A DNA stretch of 37,500 nt from positions 1 to 37,500 of IMG/VR virus record IMGVR_UViG_3300020195_000076; one strand, written 5' to 3'. The notes below the pieces were generated by a model, which saw only the letters and a list, made by a program, of their open reading frames with translations, was not told where the DNA came from and ran no database searches. Shown piece by piece: positions 4,511 to 36,785 of this stretch. The DNA is from a virus. The position numbers and the translations under genes are program-made. Every line of letters starts with the position of its first letter. Positions within the stretch are counted from its first letter, which is position 1.

Positions 4511-5014
4511 CTATGAACTTCGCTGGATTTCATCGGCCTGTAACTTCTTTGCTAGGTAGTCCGAATATATCTGCTCAGCGAGTTCGGCGGCCTTAAGGCA
4601 TTCCTCTTTTTGCGTAATGTGTGCAAGTCGCCGCGAGGTTTCGGCGTGGAGCCTCAGCCTTTCTCCCGTTGCGGTATCAACTATTTGTCTCGTCTCCTGA
4701 GTTGTCTTACTGATTTCGTCGAGCTTGTTCTCAGTGGCCACTGTAGCAAGGTTAAGCTTTAACCCAACTTCGTTTGCTACATTGTTTGCATTGTGTGACG
4801 CATTGCGCACGGCTTCCCTTACCTGCTCGGACTTAATAAGGGTAGCTTCGGCGGACCTATCAATCGCCTGCTTAGTGCCTCGATTAATCCAGGCTACGGC
4901 TACGAGCTGAAATGAGGCTATCAGGGATAGCAAAACCGCATCAGACATGCCACCGGTATTACGGGGCGGCTCCGCTAACAGCTGCGCAATTATCGATAAT
5001 AGGTAATCAATCAT
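4511..5014 (-). CDS. membrane-anchored coiled-coil protein, spanin/holin-like
   Basis: 167 aa with AGGAAGG directly upstream of the start. It has two short hydrophobic stretches near the N-terminus (IDYLLSIIAQLL and AVLLSLIASFQLVAVAWI). A long alpha-helical coiled coil of roughly 110 residues follows, rich in Glu, Lys, Gln and Asn (KQAIDRSAEATLIKSEQ onward to AKKLQADEIQRSS). This architecture fits an inner-membrane spanin subunit or a tail-chaperone-like membrane protein. It follows the last virion gene by 121 bp and precedes the secreted protein and lysis-type genes. Family not recognised. Confidence 0.55.
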   Translation of the reverse strand: MIDYLLSIIAQLLAEPPRNTGGMSDAVLLSLIASFQLVAVAWINRGTKQAIDRSAEATLIKSEQVREAVRNASHNANNVANEVGLKLNLATVATENKLDEISKTTQETRQIVDTATGERLRLHAETSRRLAHITQKEECLKAAELAEQIYSDYLAKKLQADEIQRSS

Positions 5015-9651: not shown

Positions 9652-11079
9652 TTAATACCAAGATCCACCGCCGCCGCCGGACGAACCGCCACCTTTACCG
9701 CCGCCTTTGCCCTGTTTTTCCTGCTGCTCCTGCCATTGGTATTGCTCACGAGACAGATTCTGGTCAAAAACGGCCTTATTCTTGTAGACACCCAAGCCGT
9801 AATCTTGACCCACGAAGCTCTGAGCATACCCCCCGAAATCAACCGGCGACGATTGGATCTGACTAGTTGCCGAGAACTGCGGATTCTGCACACCGCCGCT
9901 TAGCGCCCCAAGCCGAGCAACTTCGTCCAACGGCATGTAACGCAAGTCCTTAGCCTCGCTAATGCCCCTAGAGCGCGATCTATCGCCCATATCGAACATG
10001 GACTCTGTTTCCTGCCTGCCCGTCGTAATGGCGCTTGTGCGAGCTCTATTGAGTGCATCGCCCTTGTTCCGCTCAAGGTCCGACATAAGCCGGGAATACA
10101 TCTCAGAGCCTTGCGGGATGCCCTGGTTAGCCATCTTCTGCTCAAACGCTCGGAGCTGCTGCCCCGATTCCCGCTCAATGTCGCCTGAGTATTGCCCGTA
10201 TACCTGGTCCTCAACGCGCCTACGATCTCCCTGCAAATCCTCCATGCCAAGCGCCTTTGGCATAGCGCCGTAATTAAACGGCTGCTGCAAATTGGCTACC
10301 CCCGAGGCCGCAAGGCCGCCCATACCACCGCTAAACGTAGCATCGCGCTGTTGCTGAGAGTCCAACAGCCCCTGCTGCTCCGGGGATAGGCTGCTAATCC
10401 GGCTGTAAGAGCCATCGGGGTTTTGCCGAAACTCGCTCTGGCCGTAAGGATTAAACTCGTTGACGCGGTTGTATTGCGCCTGCTGCTGCATGTTCTGGTT
10501 GTTGATCTGGCCTTGAGTGTTGGCAATCTGCGCCGCTTGGTCAAAACCAGTGCTAGCGCCCCCGCTCTTATTGTATTCGTCCCACAAGCCCTGCACACGT
10601 GCGATCTCTGCGTCTGCTTGGCCTTGATTAATGCCTTTGCTCGCGACTTGAGCGGCAAGTGATGTCTTGAGCTGATCCACCGGCATGTAAGGCGCTGGGC
10701 CTTTGGGCGTTGTGTTCGTCGGGACAATGGGCTGTTGCGGCTGTTGCGGTTGCATCCCAGCGGTAGACTGCTGCCACTGCTGCATAGGCGTGCTGCCACG
10801 GTTCGTTGCTCCGTTTGCCAAGGGTGCTGTGCTAGTCGGAGCTGCCGTTGCCGTTGCCGCTGGTGCTCCCCAGCCGCCGTTGTTGATAGCGCCCTGCTGC
10901 GCTGCTGCCTCAGGCGTGATCCAGTTGTTCTGCACTTGCCAGTCAAGCGTTCCGTAAGCTGGAGCTGCCTTGCCGCCCCCGAGAGTTCCCGGCCCCGATA
11001 CTGGAGCTGCCTTGCCGCCCCCGAGAGTTCCCGGCCCCGATACTACGCCGCTATTTTGTGTTTTTCCGCTAACAGCCAT
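9652..11079 (-). CDS. Gln/Gly-rich internal virion protein
   Basis: 475 aa from the ATG at 11079; a longer frame to 11118 would lie inside the GNAT gene. It begins MAVSGKTQNSGVV and then carries two exact copies of a 14-residue unit (SGPGTLGGGKAAP plus Val or Ala). A Pro/Gln/Thr-rich region, a long Gln/Asn-rich helical body (QAQYNRVNEFNPYGQSEFRQ, SPEQQGLLDSQQQRDA, ESGQQLRAFEQKMANQGIPQ) and a Gly/Ser tail with GKGGGKGGGSSGGGGG follow. This kind of protein is common among podovirus ejection or minor tail components. The start overlaps the end of the acetyltransferase gene by 37 bp, which suggests coupled expression. Confidence 0.6.
   Translation of the reverse strand: MAVSGKTQNSGVVSGPGTLGGGKAAPVSGPGTLGGGKAAPAYGTLDWQVQNNWITPEAAAQQGAINNGGWGAPAATATAAPTSTAPLANGATNRGSTPMQQWQQSTAGMQPQQPQQPIVPTNTTPKGPAPYMPVDQLKTSLAAQVASKGINQGQADAEIARVQGLWDEYNKSGGASTGFDQAAQIANTQGQINNQNMQQQAQYNRVNEFNPYGQSEFRQNPDGSYSRISSLSPEQQGLLDSQQQRDATFSGGMGGLAASGVANLQQPFNYGAMPKALGMEDLQGDRRRVEDQVYGQYSGDIERESGQQLRAFEQKMANQGIPQGSEMYSRLMSDLERNKGDALNRARTSAITTGRQETESMFDMGDRSRSRGISEAKDLRYMPLDEVARLGALSGGVQNPQFSATSQIQSSPVDFGGYAQSFVGQDYGLGVYKNKAVFDQNLSREQYQWQEQQEKQGKGGGKGGGSSGGGGGSWY
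10961..11044 (-). repeat. perfect 42-bp tandem repeat (two copies)
   Basis: Bases 10961-11002 and 11003-11044 are identical. They encode two consecutive 14-residue units near the N-terminus of the Gln/Gly-rich virion protein, and the repeat ends at the stop codon of the overlapping GNAT gene. Perfect nucleotide identity implies a recent duplication. Confidence 0.95.
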
Positions 11080-11477
11080 CGTTCCATGTCCAATCGTGTT
11101 GCACCGTAAATGATGCAATCTTGTTGCCCGTCAAAGCCCTTGCGCTTCCTGCCTTCCTCGATAAACCCCAAGCCCCTAAGCAGCTTTCTTGCCCTGGCGT
11201 TTTTCTTACTCGTTACCGCCGTGAGTCTCACGCATTTAATTTCATCGAATCCAAACTGCATCACGCGTCTAATCCGTCCCGGCGTTGCCCACCTTGGAGT
11301 AGTTGCCGCAATGCTAACAAGCGCGTCAAACCCGTTTAGCTGCGAGAACACTACGCCCGCAACTAACTTCTCTCCGTCGTTAAAACCAAGCGCCCTAAAA
11401 GGCCCCCAGTCCGGGTAATGCTCAACACCGGGGCAAAGCCTTGCTACGAACTCACCTATGGCAAGCTCGGTCTGCAT
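11043..11477 (-). CDS. GNAT-like acetyltransferase in the virion operon
   Basis: 144 aa. The C-terminal half shows the GNAT acetyl-CoA-binding signature: FDEIKCVRLTAVTSKKNARA, then RKLLRGLGFIEEGRKRKGF. The N-terminal half has the beta-strand/helix order of the fold (ALGFNDGEKLVAGVVFSQL). GNAT enzymes transfer acetyl from acetyl-CoA to amines. Small GNAT-like proteins sit in the late operons of several podoviruses; their targets are not known to me. The start codon is shared with the end of the nozzle gene at 11477, and the end overlaps the next gene. It may act during particle assembly or modify host proteins late. Confidence 0.75.
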   Translation of the reverse strand: MQTELAIGEFVARLCPGVEHYPDWGPFRALGFNDGEKLVAGVVFSQLNGFDALVSIAATTPRWATPGRIRRVMQFGFDEIKCVRLTAVTSKKNARARKLLRGLGFIEEGRKRKGFDGQQDCIIYGATRLDMERWLLAEKHKIAA

Positions 11478-33028: not shown

Positions 33029-33216
33029 ACCTCCCCGAAGCCCGCGGGCCTTACTGCACATGCATACCCGGGCAATCCACATACACCTTCGGCACCACGG
33101 TTCCAAGCCGTATCTCACACCGCGAATTGCTAGAGCGCGACTACGCCATTTGGCAAGAGGAGCTAGCAATGGCGCGTGCTGAGTCTGTAGCATCCAAAGC
33201 AGGAGCAATCCGATAA
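33025..33216 (+). CDS. hypothetical protein of the replication operon
   Basis: 63 aa, ATG overlapping the preceding stop, and its own stop overlapping the ATG of the ATPase gene at 33216. It has an aromatic/Cys-containing start (NLPEARGPYCTCIPGQSTYT) and a helical end (HRELLERDYAIWQEELAMAR). Full coupling argues it is translated. Function unknown. Confidence 0.55.
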   Translation: MNLPEARGPYCTCIPGQSTYTFGTTVPSRISHRELLERDYAIWQEELAMARAESVASKAGAIR

Positions 33217-34133
33217 TGGAACTAACGATTAGAAAAGCCCAACGCAGCCAGCGGCCATTTAAGGGCTGTATAGCCGCACCATCGGGCGCTGGTAAAACCT
33301 ATACCGCTCTATCCCTTGCAGAGGGTTTAAAGAATGGCGGGCGTGTTCTGCTCATTGATACGGAAAACAAGAGCAGTGAGCTTTATGCTGACCGCTTTGA
33401 CTTCGATGTGATCGATATTCCTGAGCATTCGGTTGAGACGCTCCTAGTCGCGCTGCGGTTAGCGATAAAAGGGAAATACGATGTCACCATCGTTGATTCC
33501 GGCACGCACGCTTGGCAATTCATTCTTGATGAGAAAGGGAAGATAGACCTTCGGGGCGGTAACTCCTTTACCAATTGGGGCAAGGTAACGCCGCAATATG
33601 AGCAACTGATCAACGCTATCGGCAAATTCCCTAACCACCTGATTTTCACACTACGGGCCAAGACTTCCTATGTGCTGGAAGAGAACGACCGAGGCAAGCA
33701 GGTTCCTAAGAAGGTCGGCATGGGCGCTGTGTTCCGTGATGGCGGCGAGTATGAGTTCGACTTCTACGGCACGATGGACCTGGCGCACAATTTTTTTGTG
33801 GAAAAAAGCCGCATCGACTTCCTTGCTGACAAGGTTATCGCAAAGCCGGGTAAAGAGCTGGGGCAAGAAATTAGGGACTGGCTGAAAGCGGGAAGCCACT
33901 CACCTACAACACCAAGCAAACTAGCGCTTTCGCAGGGCGAGTCCTTTATTGGGCAAGACCTCCAATCCCTGAACTTGCCCCAGCTAATTGCCTATTACGA
34001 TAAGCATGTTGCCGTGATGCCTGCCGACGAGAAAGAAGCTTGCGAGCGACAGCTCGAGAAGCTTCAGAACGACATTAAAGCCACAAAGAAAAAGGAGCTA
34101 GAAAATGGGAACGCTACTGCCTACCCCGCTTGA
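33216..34133 (+). CDS. Sak4-like/RecA-fold recombination ATPase
   Basis: 305 aa. The P-loop APSGAGKT lies at residues 21-28, and the Walker-B-like VTIVDS at about 90-95 with hydrophobic lead-in (GKYDVTIVDSG). The fold order with VLLIDTENKSSELYADRF resembles phage Sak4-type single-strand annealing ATPases, often annotated as AAA/NTP-binding proteins. These load on single-stranded DNA and promote strand annealing, aided by a phage SSB. The DUF669 gene that overlaps its 3' end by 29 bp is the expected partner. No DNA polymerase is encoded nearby. Confidence 0.78.
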   Translation: MELTIRKAQRSQRPFKGCIAAPSGAGKTYTALSLAEGLKNGGRVLLIDTENKSSELYADRFDFDVIDIPEHSVETLLVALRLAIKGKYDVTIVDSGTHAWQFILDEKGKIDLRGGNSFTNWGKVTPQYEQLINAIGKFPNHLIFTLRAKTSYVLEENDRGKQVPKKVGMGAVFRDGGEYEFDFYGTMDLAHNFFVEKSRIDFLADKVIAKPGKELGQEIRDWLKAGSHSPTTPSKLALSQGESFIGQDLQSLNLPQLIAYYDKHVAVMPADEKEACERQLEKLQNDIKATKKKELENGNATAYPA

Positions 34134-34593
34134 TTTAGACGCGCCAATTGAGGAGTCAGACGACATGGAATCATACGAACTGCTGAAGCCTGCTGATTAC
34201 GTGGTTCGCGTGAAGGAAGCCGACGTAGGGCCTAGTAAGAAGGGAGATTGCACGCTGCTGAAGCTAACCTTTGAAGTTGCTCAGGCGAAGTACAAGGGCC
34301 GCTTGCTTTGGGACTACATCATCCAGCAGCACCAGAAGCCGAGCGCTGTGGTGATGGGTAAGAAGCGCACGAAAGAGCTTTGTGACGCCATTGGTATTCA
34401 CGGGGTGCTGCGGGATGCTGCGCTGTTAATCGGGCAAACCTGCATTGCTGCTGTGAGCATTGAGCCTGAGCAGAAGGGCTACAAGCCGAAGAACGTGATC
34501 GATAGCTATCGATCACGATCCGAGCCGCATGTATCCCCTGCTGTTAACGGGGCGCCTGTTGCTTTTGATGATGATGATGATATTCCCTTTTGA
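34105..34593 (+). CDS. DUF669 single-stranded-DNA-binding-like protein
   Basis: 162 aa with AAAAAGGAG upstream of its ATG. The body (LKPADYVVRVKEADVGPSKK, LKLTFEVAQAKYKGRLLWDY, LIGQTCIAAVSIEPEQKGY) has the DUF669 layout, an OB-fold-like protein. The C-terminus ends DDDDDIPF, an acidic tail with a hydrophobic end like that of SSBs, which recruits partner proteins. DUF669 proteins pair with Sak4-type ATPases in phage recombination modules; that is the inferred role here. Confidence 0.75.
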   Translation: MGTLLPTPLDLDAPIEESDDMESYELLKPADYVVRVKEADVGPSKKGDCTLLKLTFEVAQAKYKGRLLWDYIIQQHQKPSAVVMGKKRTKELCDAIGIHGVLRDAALLIGQTCIAAVSIEPEQKGYKPKNVIDSYRSRSEPHVSPAVNGAPVAFDDDDDIPF

Positions 34594-34605: not shown

Positions 34606-35430
34606 ATGGCGCCGGGCTATCTGCTTCTGCATAGAAAAGCACGCAGCAATGACCTTTGGACTGAGCGAAGGGTCTTCTCAAAGTGGGAAGCATGGCTCGA
34701 TCTTTTGTTTGACGCTAACTGGAAAGATGGAAAAATGACAATAGATTTAACCACCGTTGAGATCAAGAGAGGCGAGCAAATTACCTCCATGAAGAAGCTC
34801 GCCAGGCGCTGGAAATGGTCTCAGCCGAAGGTCAAAAGGTATTTCCTCTTTCTGCAAACCGCTGAGCAAGTCAGTTTCAAAACAGGCCGAAAATGGACAT
34901 CACTTAAGATCCTAAATTACGATAAATATCAACCATCTGCGGAGACGACGTTACTGAGACGTGGATCAAACGTTAACCAAACATTACCCAGACGTGGATC
35001 AAACGTTGACAATAGAATGAAGAATAAGAACTTAAAGAAGAATAATGAAGGTAATGAAGAAATACATACAGGCGTTCCGCCCGCCGCTGAAGCGGCTCCC
35101 TCACCTATCTGGCCCGGTTGTGAGCATTTGCGAATGACCGAGGCCGAACACAGCAGAGCTTTAGCGGCAATCCTTAAGCGCGGACTTGCGCCGGAAATGA
35201 TCGACGCTTGCATCGAGGAAGTCGATAGCTGGCTCTCTCAGCAGAACAACCCCAAGGCAGCTAAGGCCCGTAAGGACTCAACACATTACCGCCGAATATA
35301 CGCGGCTTGGGTAGTGCGTAATGTGCTGGTGGTTAGAAACGGCAGTAGCAACGGTAGGCCCGGCGCTGAGAGCCTAGATGCTCTAGTTGCTCGCCTCGCA
35401 GCACAGGAGGCCCAAGATGCGACAAAGTGA
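34606..35430 (+). CDS. replication-initiation-like protein with HTH and internal iterons
   Basis: 274 aa. The N-terminal ~105 residues look like a winged helix: LWTERRVFSKWEAWLDLLFD, LTTVEIKRGEQITSMKKLAR, RWKWSQPKVKRYFLFLQTAE, as in phage replication or primosomal proteins (lambda O/DnaT-like). A Ser/Lys/Asn/Glu linker follows, then a helical C-terminal domain (EAEHSRALAAILKRGLAPEM, AAWVVRNVLVVRNG). The linker DNA carries two 33-bp tandem repeats and an A-rich tract. As in lambda O, the initiator could bind an origin inside its own gene. It precedes a helicase-loader-like gene. Confidence 0.65.
   Translation: MAPGYLLLHRKARSNDLWTERRVFSKWEAWLDLLFDANWKDGKMTIDLTTVEIKRGEQITSMKKLARRWKWSQPKVKRYFLFLQTAEQVSFKTGRKWTSLKILNYDKYQPSAETTLLRRGSNVNQTLPRRGSNVDNRMKNKNLKKNNEGNEEIHTGVPPAAEAAPSPIWPGCEHLRMTEAEHSRALAAILKRGLAPEMIDACIEEVDSWLSQQNNPKAAKARKDSTHYRRIYAAWVVRNVLVVRNGSSNGRPGAESLDALVARLAAQEAQDATK
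34948..35070 (+). repeat. 33-bp tandem iterons plus A-rich tract, candidate origin
   Basis: Two adjacent 33-bp units (34948-34980 and 34981-35013) match at 27 of 33 positions, with an identical 18-nt core (AGACGTGGATCAAACGTT at 34957 and 34990). Immediately after them, bases 35014-35070 are strongly A- and purine-rich. This copies the lambda ori plan, iterons beside an A-rich unwinding element within the initiator gene. It is a candidate replication origin; no function is proven here. Confidence 0.55.
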
Positions 35431-36133
35431 GGCAACCAAGCTCCTGGGCCGAATCTCGGGGCTCTATAACGGGCGGGTTCGTTTCGACGTTGAGACATCC
35501 CGGAGCTGGGCGCAGATGTTCCGTGAGTTCACCGCCGCCGAAGTGGAGGAAGCTACTGACGCGTGGCTGAACAAATCCGGCGAAGGCAACTTCAGCGCCC
35601 ACCCGCCAAGCGCCCCGGAGATTCTGCAAGAGCTTAAGCGCGTCAAGGCTCGCACCAGAAAGCGGGACTACGTTAAGGCCCCATCTAACGCCTTCGCGGA
35701 ACATGGGCGGCGCTACGGGCTTGTTGAGGCACGTATGCGTGCTAGTGACGGCAAGCTGTTTAAGCGCTGGGAGTTCGCCAAGGACTGCGTTCAATTCCAG
35801 GATCGTTACTACCGCCGTATTGATTTCATTGCGAAGTGGGCACCGGAGTTTCTGGCTGAAGAATGTCGGCGGGTATTTCCGGGAGGCTCTATCAGCAAGG
35901 TGTATGAGCTATTTGAGGGAGCAAAGGACGGAGAACCCAGGGCGCTAAAGGCAGTAAAGCGCTGGGAGGAAGTTAAAAATTTCATGCTGGAAATAGCCAT
36001 AGAGAACGCATTCAAAACAACCGGCAAGTTAGTCACGACAGTGGAGGAACATGAGAGAACCGAAAGAATGCCTTACAGTGAGAATGAATCCGAAGTACCT
36101 GCGGTACATCGAGAGCGTAACGAACAACCGTAG
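35417..36133 (+). CDS. helicase-loader-like replication protein
   Basis: 238 aa from the ATG at 35417, chosen because of AGGAGG at 35405-35410 (6 nt spacing); an earlier in-frame ATG at 35387 lies inside the upstream gene. The N-terminal part (EATKLLGRISGLYNGRVRFD, SRSWAQMFREFTAAEVEEAT, DAWLNKSGEGNFSAHPPSAP) resembles the small helical domain of G39P-type helicase loaders and related phage replication proteins. The rest is helical and basic. Position after the initiator-like gene suggests it brings host DnaB to the origin, as lambda P does. Family assignment is tentative. Confidence 0.5.
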   Translation: MRQSEATKLLGRISGLYNGRVRFDVETSRSWAQMFREFTAAEVEEATDAWLNKSGEGNFSAHPPSAPEILQELKRVKARTRKRDYVKAPSNAFAEHGRRYGLVEARMRASDGKLFKRWEFAKDCVQFQDRYYRRIDFIAKWAPEFLAEECRRVFPGGSISKVYELFEGAKDGEPRALKAVKRWEEVKNFMLEIAIENAFKTTGKLVTTVEEHERTERMPYSENESEVPAVHRERNEQP

Positions 36134-36290
36134 CAGGTGGGTCGAGGAAGCCTGCGAACGGCGCATAGCAGACGAAGAGCCGGTGTTGATGAATAAAATT
36201 ATACAGGGCCGGAAGGCCGAAGAGGAGCTGGGCAATGTTTGCAAAAATAGCTTAAGAATCGGGCACGGTAATGGAAGCAAGAATAATTAG
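36051..36290 (+). CDS. possible RHH/CopG-like small protein
   Basis: 79 aa, overlapping the previous gene by 83 bp in a different frame, with GGAGG close before its ATG. The start KECLTVRMNPKYLRYIESVT followed by NNRSRWVEEACERRIADEEP fits a strand-helix-helix plan like small RHH regulators. The C-terminus is Asn/Lys/Gly-rich. The long overlap reduces confidence, but the strong ribosome site and coherent fold support it. Confidence 0.5.
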   Translation: MREPKECLTVRMNPKYLRYIESVTNNRSRWVEEACERRIADEEPVLMNKIIQGRKAEEELGNVCKNSLRIGHGNGSKNN

Positions 36291-36369
36291 TCGAGTCATT
36301 AGGCGGCACAATCGCAGGGCAGCAGCAGCAAGGGCATTAGCAGCATGGCTAGGGCACGCAAAGCGTTAG
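36271..36369 (+). CDS. possible 32-aa Arg/Ala-rich peptide
   Basis: ATG at 36271 opens a frame of 32 codons (MEARIISRVIRRHNRRAAAA at the start, then RALAAWLGHAKR). It overlaps the end of the RHH-like gene by 20 bp and the start of the nuclease gene by 25 bp. Cationic and helical, but there is little upstream ribosome signal. It could simply be spacer between two genes. Confidence 0.25.
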   Translation: MEARIISRVIRRHNRRAAAARALAAWLGHAKR

Positions 36370-36785
36370 CAACGGGCGACGCGATCAGCATCGAGGAGTA
36401 CCAAAGTGGAACGAAGCGCAAGCATAAGTTTAACGCTACCCGCACCTTCGTTAACCACATCGGGTTCGACTCAAAGCGGGAGTCGGAGCGCTACATCGAG
36501 CTACTCACTGTGCAAACGCACAGCAGCGCCCAGCTTATCCGTAACTTACAGACGCAGCGCACTTTCGAGTTCTTCACATGCGGCTGCAAAGTCGAGCGCT
36601 GGCGAATTGATTTCTGTTACGAGGAATGGAATCGGCGCGAGAATTGCTGGAACCGCATCGCTGAGGATGTCACAGGCTTCATGACGGCACGCAAGACGCG
36701 GCTAATACGGCTGTTTGAGGAGCAGTATGGATTGGATAACAACTACACGGATTTCGAAAAATGGGACCTACGAATAAGCAAGTGA
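36345..36785 (+). CDS. DUF1064 resolvase-like nuclease
   Basis: 146 aa. GTKRKHKFNATRTFVNHIGF, DSKRESERYIELL, LQTQRTFEFF, ERWRIDFCYEEW, IAEDVTGFMTARKTRLIRLF match the DUF1064 (phage Holliday-junction resolvase-like) pattern 'KYNA... FDSK.E..RY ... Q..F ... Y..DF.Y ... EDVKG'. These are PD-(D/E)xK-type nucleases thought to resolve branched DNA before packaging. The acidic residues RWRIDF and AEDVTG fit the catalytic positions; the conserved Lys is less clear. It fits the recombination module upstream. Confidence 0.75.
   Translation: MARARKALATGDAISIEEYQSGTKRKHKFNATRTFVNHIGFDSKRESERYIELLTVQTHSSAQLIRNLQTQRTFEFFTCGCKVERWRIDFCYEEWNRRENCWNRIAEDVTGFMTARKTRLIRLFEEQYGLDNNYTDFEKWDLRISK

Follow-up and report, generated by a model that had tools for sequence, protein, structure and literature searches.

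A probable SPP1 oriL-type replication origin within the initiator gene of an IMG/VR virus

We analysed positions 1–37,500, one strand, of the virus record IMGVR_UViG_3300020195_000076 from IMG/VR. This whole stretch is referred to as the window, and it represents the readable 37.5 kb of a record of 39,242 bases, the last 1742 of which lie outside it. The features of the locus are listed in Table 1. In addition to its Pfam match, the ATPase gene of the upstream recombination module matches phrog_1366 (E=6e-66) and the Sak4-like family phrog_124 (E=4e-15). Near the putative origin, at 36345–36785, there is also a gene of the DUF1064 / phage Holliday-junction resolvase-like type (PF06356, 25.0 bits; phrog_190, E=4e-9), as in phage EH-TP1.

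Table 1. Coordinates of the genes and sequence elements at the locus (positions of the window)
Feature	Position	Strand	Remarks
AAA_24 / Sak4-like ATPase gene, recombination module upstream	33216..34133	+	PF13479, E=8e-19
DUF669 / phage SSB-like gene, upstream in the operon of the initiator	34105..34593	+	Pfam DUF669, 22.0 bits (cut-off 21); PHROG SSB families
Initiator (replisome organizer) gene, 274 aa, ATG start	34606..35430	+	SPP1 gp38 / PHROG 2514 family
Codons of residues 71–80, start of the recognition helix (WSQPKVKRYF, Gln73 and Pro74)	34816..34845	+	Covaries with the repeats
Six tandem 11-bp iterons, probable (predicted) initiator binding sites	34947..35012	+	Consensus about RACRTKRAYCA
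First 33-bp repeat of the first-pass annotation	34948..34980	+	Three 11-mers, shifted by one base
Second 33-bp repeat of the first-pass annotation	34981..35013	+	Within/overlapping the 11-mer array
AT-rich, A-rich tract, probable (predicted) DNA unwinding element	35013..35072	+	Directly after the array
Helicase-loader gene, 238 aa, overlapping the end of the initiator gene	35417..36133	+	N-terminal ~85 aa of G39P type

The initiator matches PHROG 2514, a family annotated as “DnaD-like” helicase loader, with E=4.6e-23, and many phage initiators were retrieved with it by tblastn, including SPP1 gene 38 (37.8% over residues 2–129, E=4e-19). A single-sequence protein search found just two distant relatives, and since this was too sparse, relatives were gathered with profiles. 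The lambda O family (Phage_rep_O, PF04492) gave no match to the initiator, nor did it appear in the Pfam scan. By sequence, the gene is homologous to SPP1 gene 38 and not to lambda O; the phage, which a first-pass annotation of this DNA had called unrelated-looking, acquires kin once the SPP1 gp38 / PHROG 2514 family is searched. The protein consists of a winged helix (around residues 24–108), a disordered linker (around 120–178) and a helical C-terminal region. An AF2 model, built with 25 relatives, bears out the winged-helix N-terminus that had been proposed for the gene holding the repeats: the domain is confidently predicted (pLDDT >90 at about residues 31–110), with a helix-turn-helix formed by residues 62–69 and 73–85 and a wing at 89–102, and the linker is unstructured (pLDDT <50). 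CRP-type winged helices were found for this model with VIA-align (Z about 8); with Foldseek alone, neither this model nor that of the loader had a significant match in the PDB.

The array within the gene reads, in order, GACGTTACTGA GACGTGGATCA AACGTTAACCA AACATTACCCA GACGTGGATCA AACGTTGACAA, and its 11-mers code for part of the unstructured linker. The first-pass annotation had described here two adjacent 33-bp repeats sharing an identical 18-nt core. Both are present, with 26 of 30 nucleotides identical (23/30 for the best chance pair in 60 Markov-simulated windows), and the core, AGACGTGGATCAAACGTT, occurs once in each, at 34957–34974 and 34990–35007. The true repeat unit, however, is 11 bp, in six tandem copies, and 33 bp is a superperiod of 3 × 11. 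The mean pairwise identity of the six 11-mers, 0.655, is the highest among all 66-bp stretches of the window (mean 0.254, sd 0.037), and periods of 8–10 and 12–14 gave no signal at the array. A recent chance duplication of 33 bp, lying by coincidence beside a loader gene and an AT-rich tract, would leave 33-bp copies more alike than the 11-mers within them, as is the case here; yet the 11-mer pairs that are not in a 33-bp relation retain an identity of 0.614, likewise the window maximum, and an array stands at the same place in relatives, which makes this explanation very unlikely. A search with a two-unit pattern, allowing up to three mismatches, gave five overlapping matches in the window, all inside the array, and none in 100 shuffles, so that no second array of the motif was found in the readable window. 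The units are more diverged than in most relatives; a simple lag-11 score of the window linker against codon shuffles is not significant (p=0.16), and the six-unit test is. The A/purine-rich tract that had been noted right after the repeats begins at 35013. It is 73% AT and ranks ninth among the 37,440 60-mers of the window, eight being richer.

No close relative turned up, so conservation was judged on relatives that are ~35–45% identical in the domain. About 200 of them, drawn from phages, viral contigs and genomes, make up a first set (n=100, <75% identity in the N-terminal domain) and a held-out set (n=105, each member <70% identical to the others and to those of the first set). At least three units at an 11- or 12-bp step were found in the linker in 87 of the 100 members of the first set; the corresponding figures are 16% for codon-shuffled linkers and 4% for tiles taken from the coding DNA of the domain. 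In the held-out set, at least four units were present in 93/105, against 6/315 shuffles (2%), and steps of 7–8, 9, 10, 13–14 and 14–15 stayed at background level. The exact 18-nt core found no match among viral contigs; what recurs at the same place in related phages is the 11/12-bp array. Self-similarity of the linkers peaks at lags 11, 12, 22 and 33, corresponding to the array, and at 9 and 18, corresponding to the AT tract, and coding controls are flat. With a step of 11 bp in most cases and 12 bp in the others, the array passes through all three reading frames of the peptide, and only the DNA is conserved. An AT-rich 60-mer comes after the array in 84 of 87 relatives. In relatives of the R73 type (for example, L131 and L208), arrays mix 12-bp GACGGTACAGCA and 11-bp GACGGACAGCA units, which are one inserted T apart. 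The AT tract of the relatives’ linkers (for example, L091, L119 and L017) has a 9-bp repeat of its own, of AATAATGAT and AAGAATGTA types, also found in non-coding form in SPP1; the tract may be more than an AT-rich stretch, namely an ordered element for strand opening.

The direct repeats of SPP1 oriL, which lie within gene 38 beside an AT-rich unwinding element, are bound by gp38, and gp39 is the loader of the helicase (PMC6316719). We found in SPP1 gene 38 a tandem 11-mer array (AAACGACACGA and variants) at 35938–35990 of the SPP1 record, inside the 350-bp oriL clone, which spans 35801–36151 (PMC5615212). A two-unit pattern derived from this array has one other strong match in SPP1, at 4889–4908, with one mismatch; a further match needs three mismatches, as do reversed-pattern controls. 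The 4889 site is non-coding (its longest stop-to-stop stretch is 24 codons). After it comes AACAATATAAACAACAATGATAAACAATGAGAACAAT, the tract that is also present in the coding linkers. Because this copy is non-coding, the array and the AT tract are elements of the DNA and not by-products of the protein sequence. Measured round the circle, the site and oriL are ~13 kb apart, which equals the published spacing of oriL and oriR, and the site is probably oriR. In this non-coding region, at 4797–4950 of the SPP1 record (G001:C1, locus L408), the units fall into two groups.

The window resembles SPP1 in its homologous initiator, in the iterons located in linker-coding DNA just after the winged helix, in the AT tract directly downstream of them and in the helicase-loader gene that comes next. 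It differs in that SPP1 encodes a DnaB-type helicase of its own, gp40 (PMC6316719), and has oriR as a second site; neither is found in the readable part of the window. The iterons also differ, AAACGACAC in SPP1 and RACGTKRAYCA in the window, as does the recognition helix (N73 T74 against Q73 P74). A winged-helix protein bound within its own gene could also block transcription, and the iterons might accordingly be an operator, through which the protein mainly regulates its own operon or blocks transcription, with the true origin elsewhere. This is improbable: sites of the same kind for SPP1 gp38 are proven origins (PMC6316719), the AT-rich tract follows the array almost throughout the relatives, the second SPP1 copy sits at the position of oriR, and the readable window has no other array of the motif.

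The relationship between the iterons and the recognition helix was assessed across the family. Between classes the units cannot be put in a unique phase, which made mutual information per base and residue noisy. A phase-free partial Mantel test was relied on instead; it compares iteron similarity with identity per five-residue segment of the domain, with identity in the other segments partialled out, and does not wholly remove shared ancestry. The partial correlation in the first set is highest at residues 71–76 (0.45) and exceeds 0.2 only at residues 69–78. In the held-out set the six best segments are all within residues 69–79, with values up to 0.35, the best of 60 label permutations being 0.175. 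In both sets, iteron similarity follows residues 69–78 much more closely than it does the remainder of the domain. Among members with R73 only, the helix again ranks first, at 0.261, below the permutation maximum of 0.288. From linker DNA alone, residue 73 was assigned to the right class (N, R or K) in 85% of held-out cases, compared with at most 77% in 2000 permutations; correct calls were 68/74 for R73, 9/13 for K73 and 3/7 for N73, so that the gain is mainly in R and K. The Gln73-Pro74 pair of the window is rare: only two further members have Pro74, and each of them shares 39% identity with the window protein and 45% with the other. At least three CGT[G/T] words, a motif picked after inspection of the data, occur in the linker of all three Pro74 members and in 0/180 others (n=183; Fisher 1e-6, or 6e-5 without the window), and none of 5000 random triples had an equally perfect word.

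These observations also bear on the reading in which the repeats merely encode a low-complexity protein linker and play no role as DNA. The segment does code for a disordered linker; however, the 11/12-bp period takes the peptide through all three frames, codon shuffles abolish the periodicity, the SPP1 copy at 4.8 kb is non-coding and the iterons covary with the recognition helix, all of which leaves little room for such a reading. Family-wide, we favour, with some reserve, a description of the origin as a frame-indifferent 11/12-bp ruler in the linker of the initiator, with a short code at the start of the recognition helix (residues 73, 74 and neighbours) setting the iteron sequence. As the iterons encode a floppy linker, a repeat of 11 bp, which is not a whole number of codons, can be retained in the DNA. 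If this description holds, initiator and origin change specificity together, as one cassette, and the origins of very many phages could be read from their initiator genes. Neither the 11/12-bp rule for the whole family nor its helix code turned up in the literature searched, which did not include the primary SPP1 papers of 1994 and 1997.

The next gene was placed solely by family profile and structural comparison. A profile of 73 G39P-like ORFs, from which the window was excluded, matches the N-terminal 80 residues of its product (E=2.1e-6), and the product matches phrog_2289, a helicase-loader family, with E=6e-4. Tblastn against phages gave no match, direct BLASTP against SPP1 gp39 was not significant, and a search for related loci returned none. 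The best solved matches of its single-sequence model are lambda P in its complex with DnaB (Z 8.4) and SPP1 G39P (1no1; Z 7.5, 65 of 67 residues at 2.0 Å); the top score is middling by the scale of the tool, but phage helicase loaders take both of the first two places. The profile match and the loader-like model agree with the helicase-loader-like gene that had been proposed downstream of the initiator. Searches of the readable 37.5 kb for the DnaB_C, DNA polymerase I and polymerase III alpha families gave no match, in line with the earlier suggestion that the phage lacks its own polymerase. With neither a DnaB helicase nor a polymerase of its own in this part, recruitment of host DnaB is plausible, and its loading is probably carried out by the product of this gene.

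We consider it very likely that 34947–35072 is a theta origin of the SPP1 oriL type, read by the product of the gene in which it lies, with the loader from the next gene bringing host DnaB. We infer the following steps in the window phage. The N-terminal winged helix would bind the six 11-bp iterons of its own gene. With the sites spaced at close to a helical turn, protomers bound to them would line up on the same face of the DNA, and their stacking would strain and open the AT-rich tract just downstream. The G39P/lambda P-type loader would then bring host DnaB to the opened strand. A GC-skew inflection was sought near 35 kb, as the first-pass annotation had proposed, and was uninformative: the minimum of the cumulative skew lies at ~27–33 kb, where the genes switch from the minus strand (structural) to the plus strand (early), and the turn is confounded by this change in gene direction.

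Origins within initiator genes are already well known in SPP1, lambda, 80-alpha and RepA_N plasmids, and that of the window is of the SPP1 kind. The architecture had been called lambda-like, which is correct for the plan alone. As at lambda oriλ, iterons and an AT-rich element lie inside the initiator gene, a helicase loader comes next and the helicase would be host DnaB; the loader domain, too, resembles lambda P. Lambda O is, however, of another family than the gp38-type initiator of the window, and the lambda iterons are four longer repeats of ~18 bp. The window thus shows a resemblance to the O/P plan, not membership. In Staphylococcus phage 80-alpha, ORF20 is a G38P homologue; complementation of its gene in trans fails, and the ori probably lies within it (PMC5499656). 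ORF20/ORF21 are similar to the window genes in having a G38P-like initiator with a probably embedded ori and a loader that recruits the host helicase (PMC5499656), but the loader is a DnaC/DnaI-like AAA+ protein there and G39P/lambda P-like in the window. In RepA_N plasmids of the pSK41 type, a winged-helix N-terminal domain binds Rep boxes located centrally in rep, and the ori-encoded linker is dispensable in the protein (PMC5703833). The pSK41-type Rep boxes and domain belong to another family, and no Pfam match to a RepA_N domain was found in the window initiator.

For the window phage, the location of the putative origin and of both host-takeover proteins makes theta replication directly testable. 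More generally, the rule of 11/12-bp arrays after a winged helix, followed by an AT tract, picks out candidate origins by sequence alone in phages with many different hosts, and the proposed specificity code can be tested with purified natural domains. Initiator–origin pairs of this kind would be relevant to incompatibility between phages, to satellites whose origins imitate those of phages and to the question of how an initiator changes its binding site while keeping its origin.

Two further repeats were observed elsewhere in the window. A long GCT/CTG-type microsatellite at 90–343, with ~21 copies of a 12-mer and 27 of a 9-mer, lies in a frame that is already open where the window begins, and a perfect 42-bp tandem duplication is found at 10959–11044, within a structural gene on the minus strand (9652–11118).
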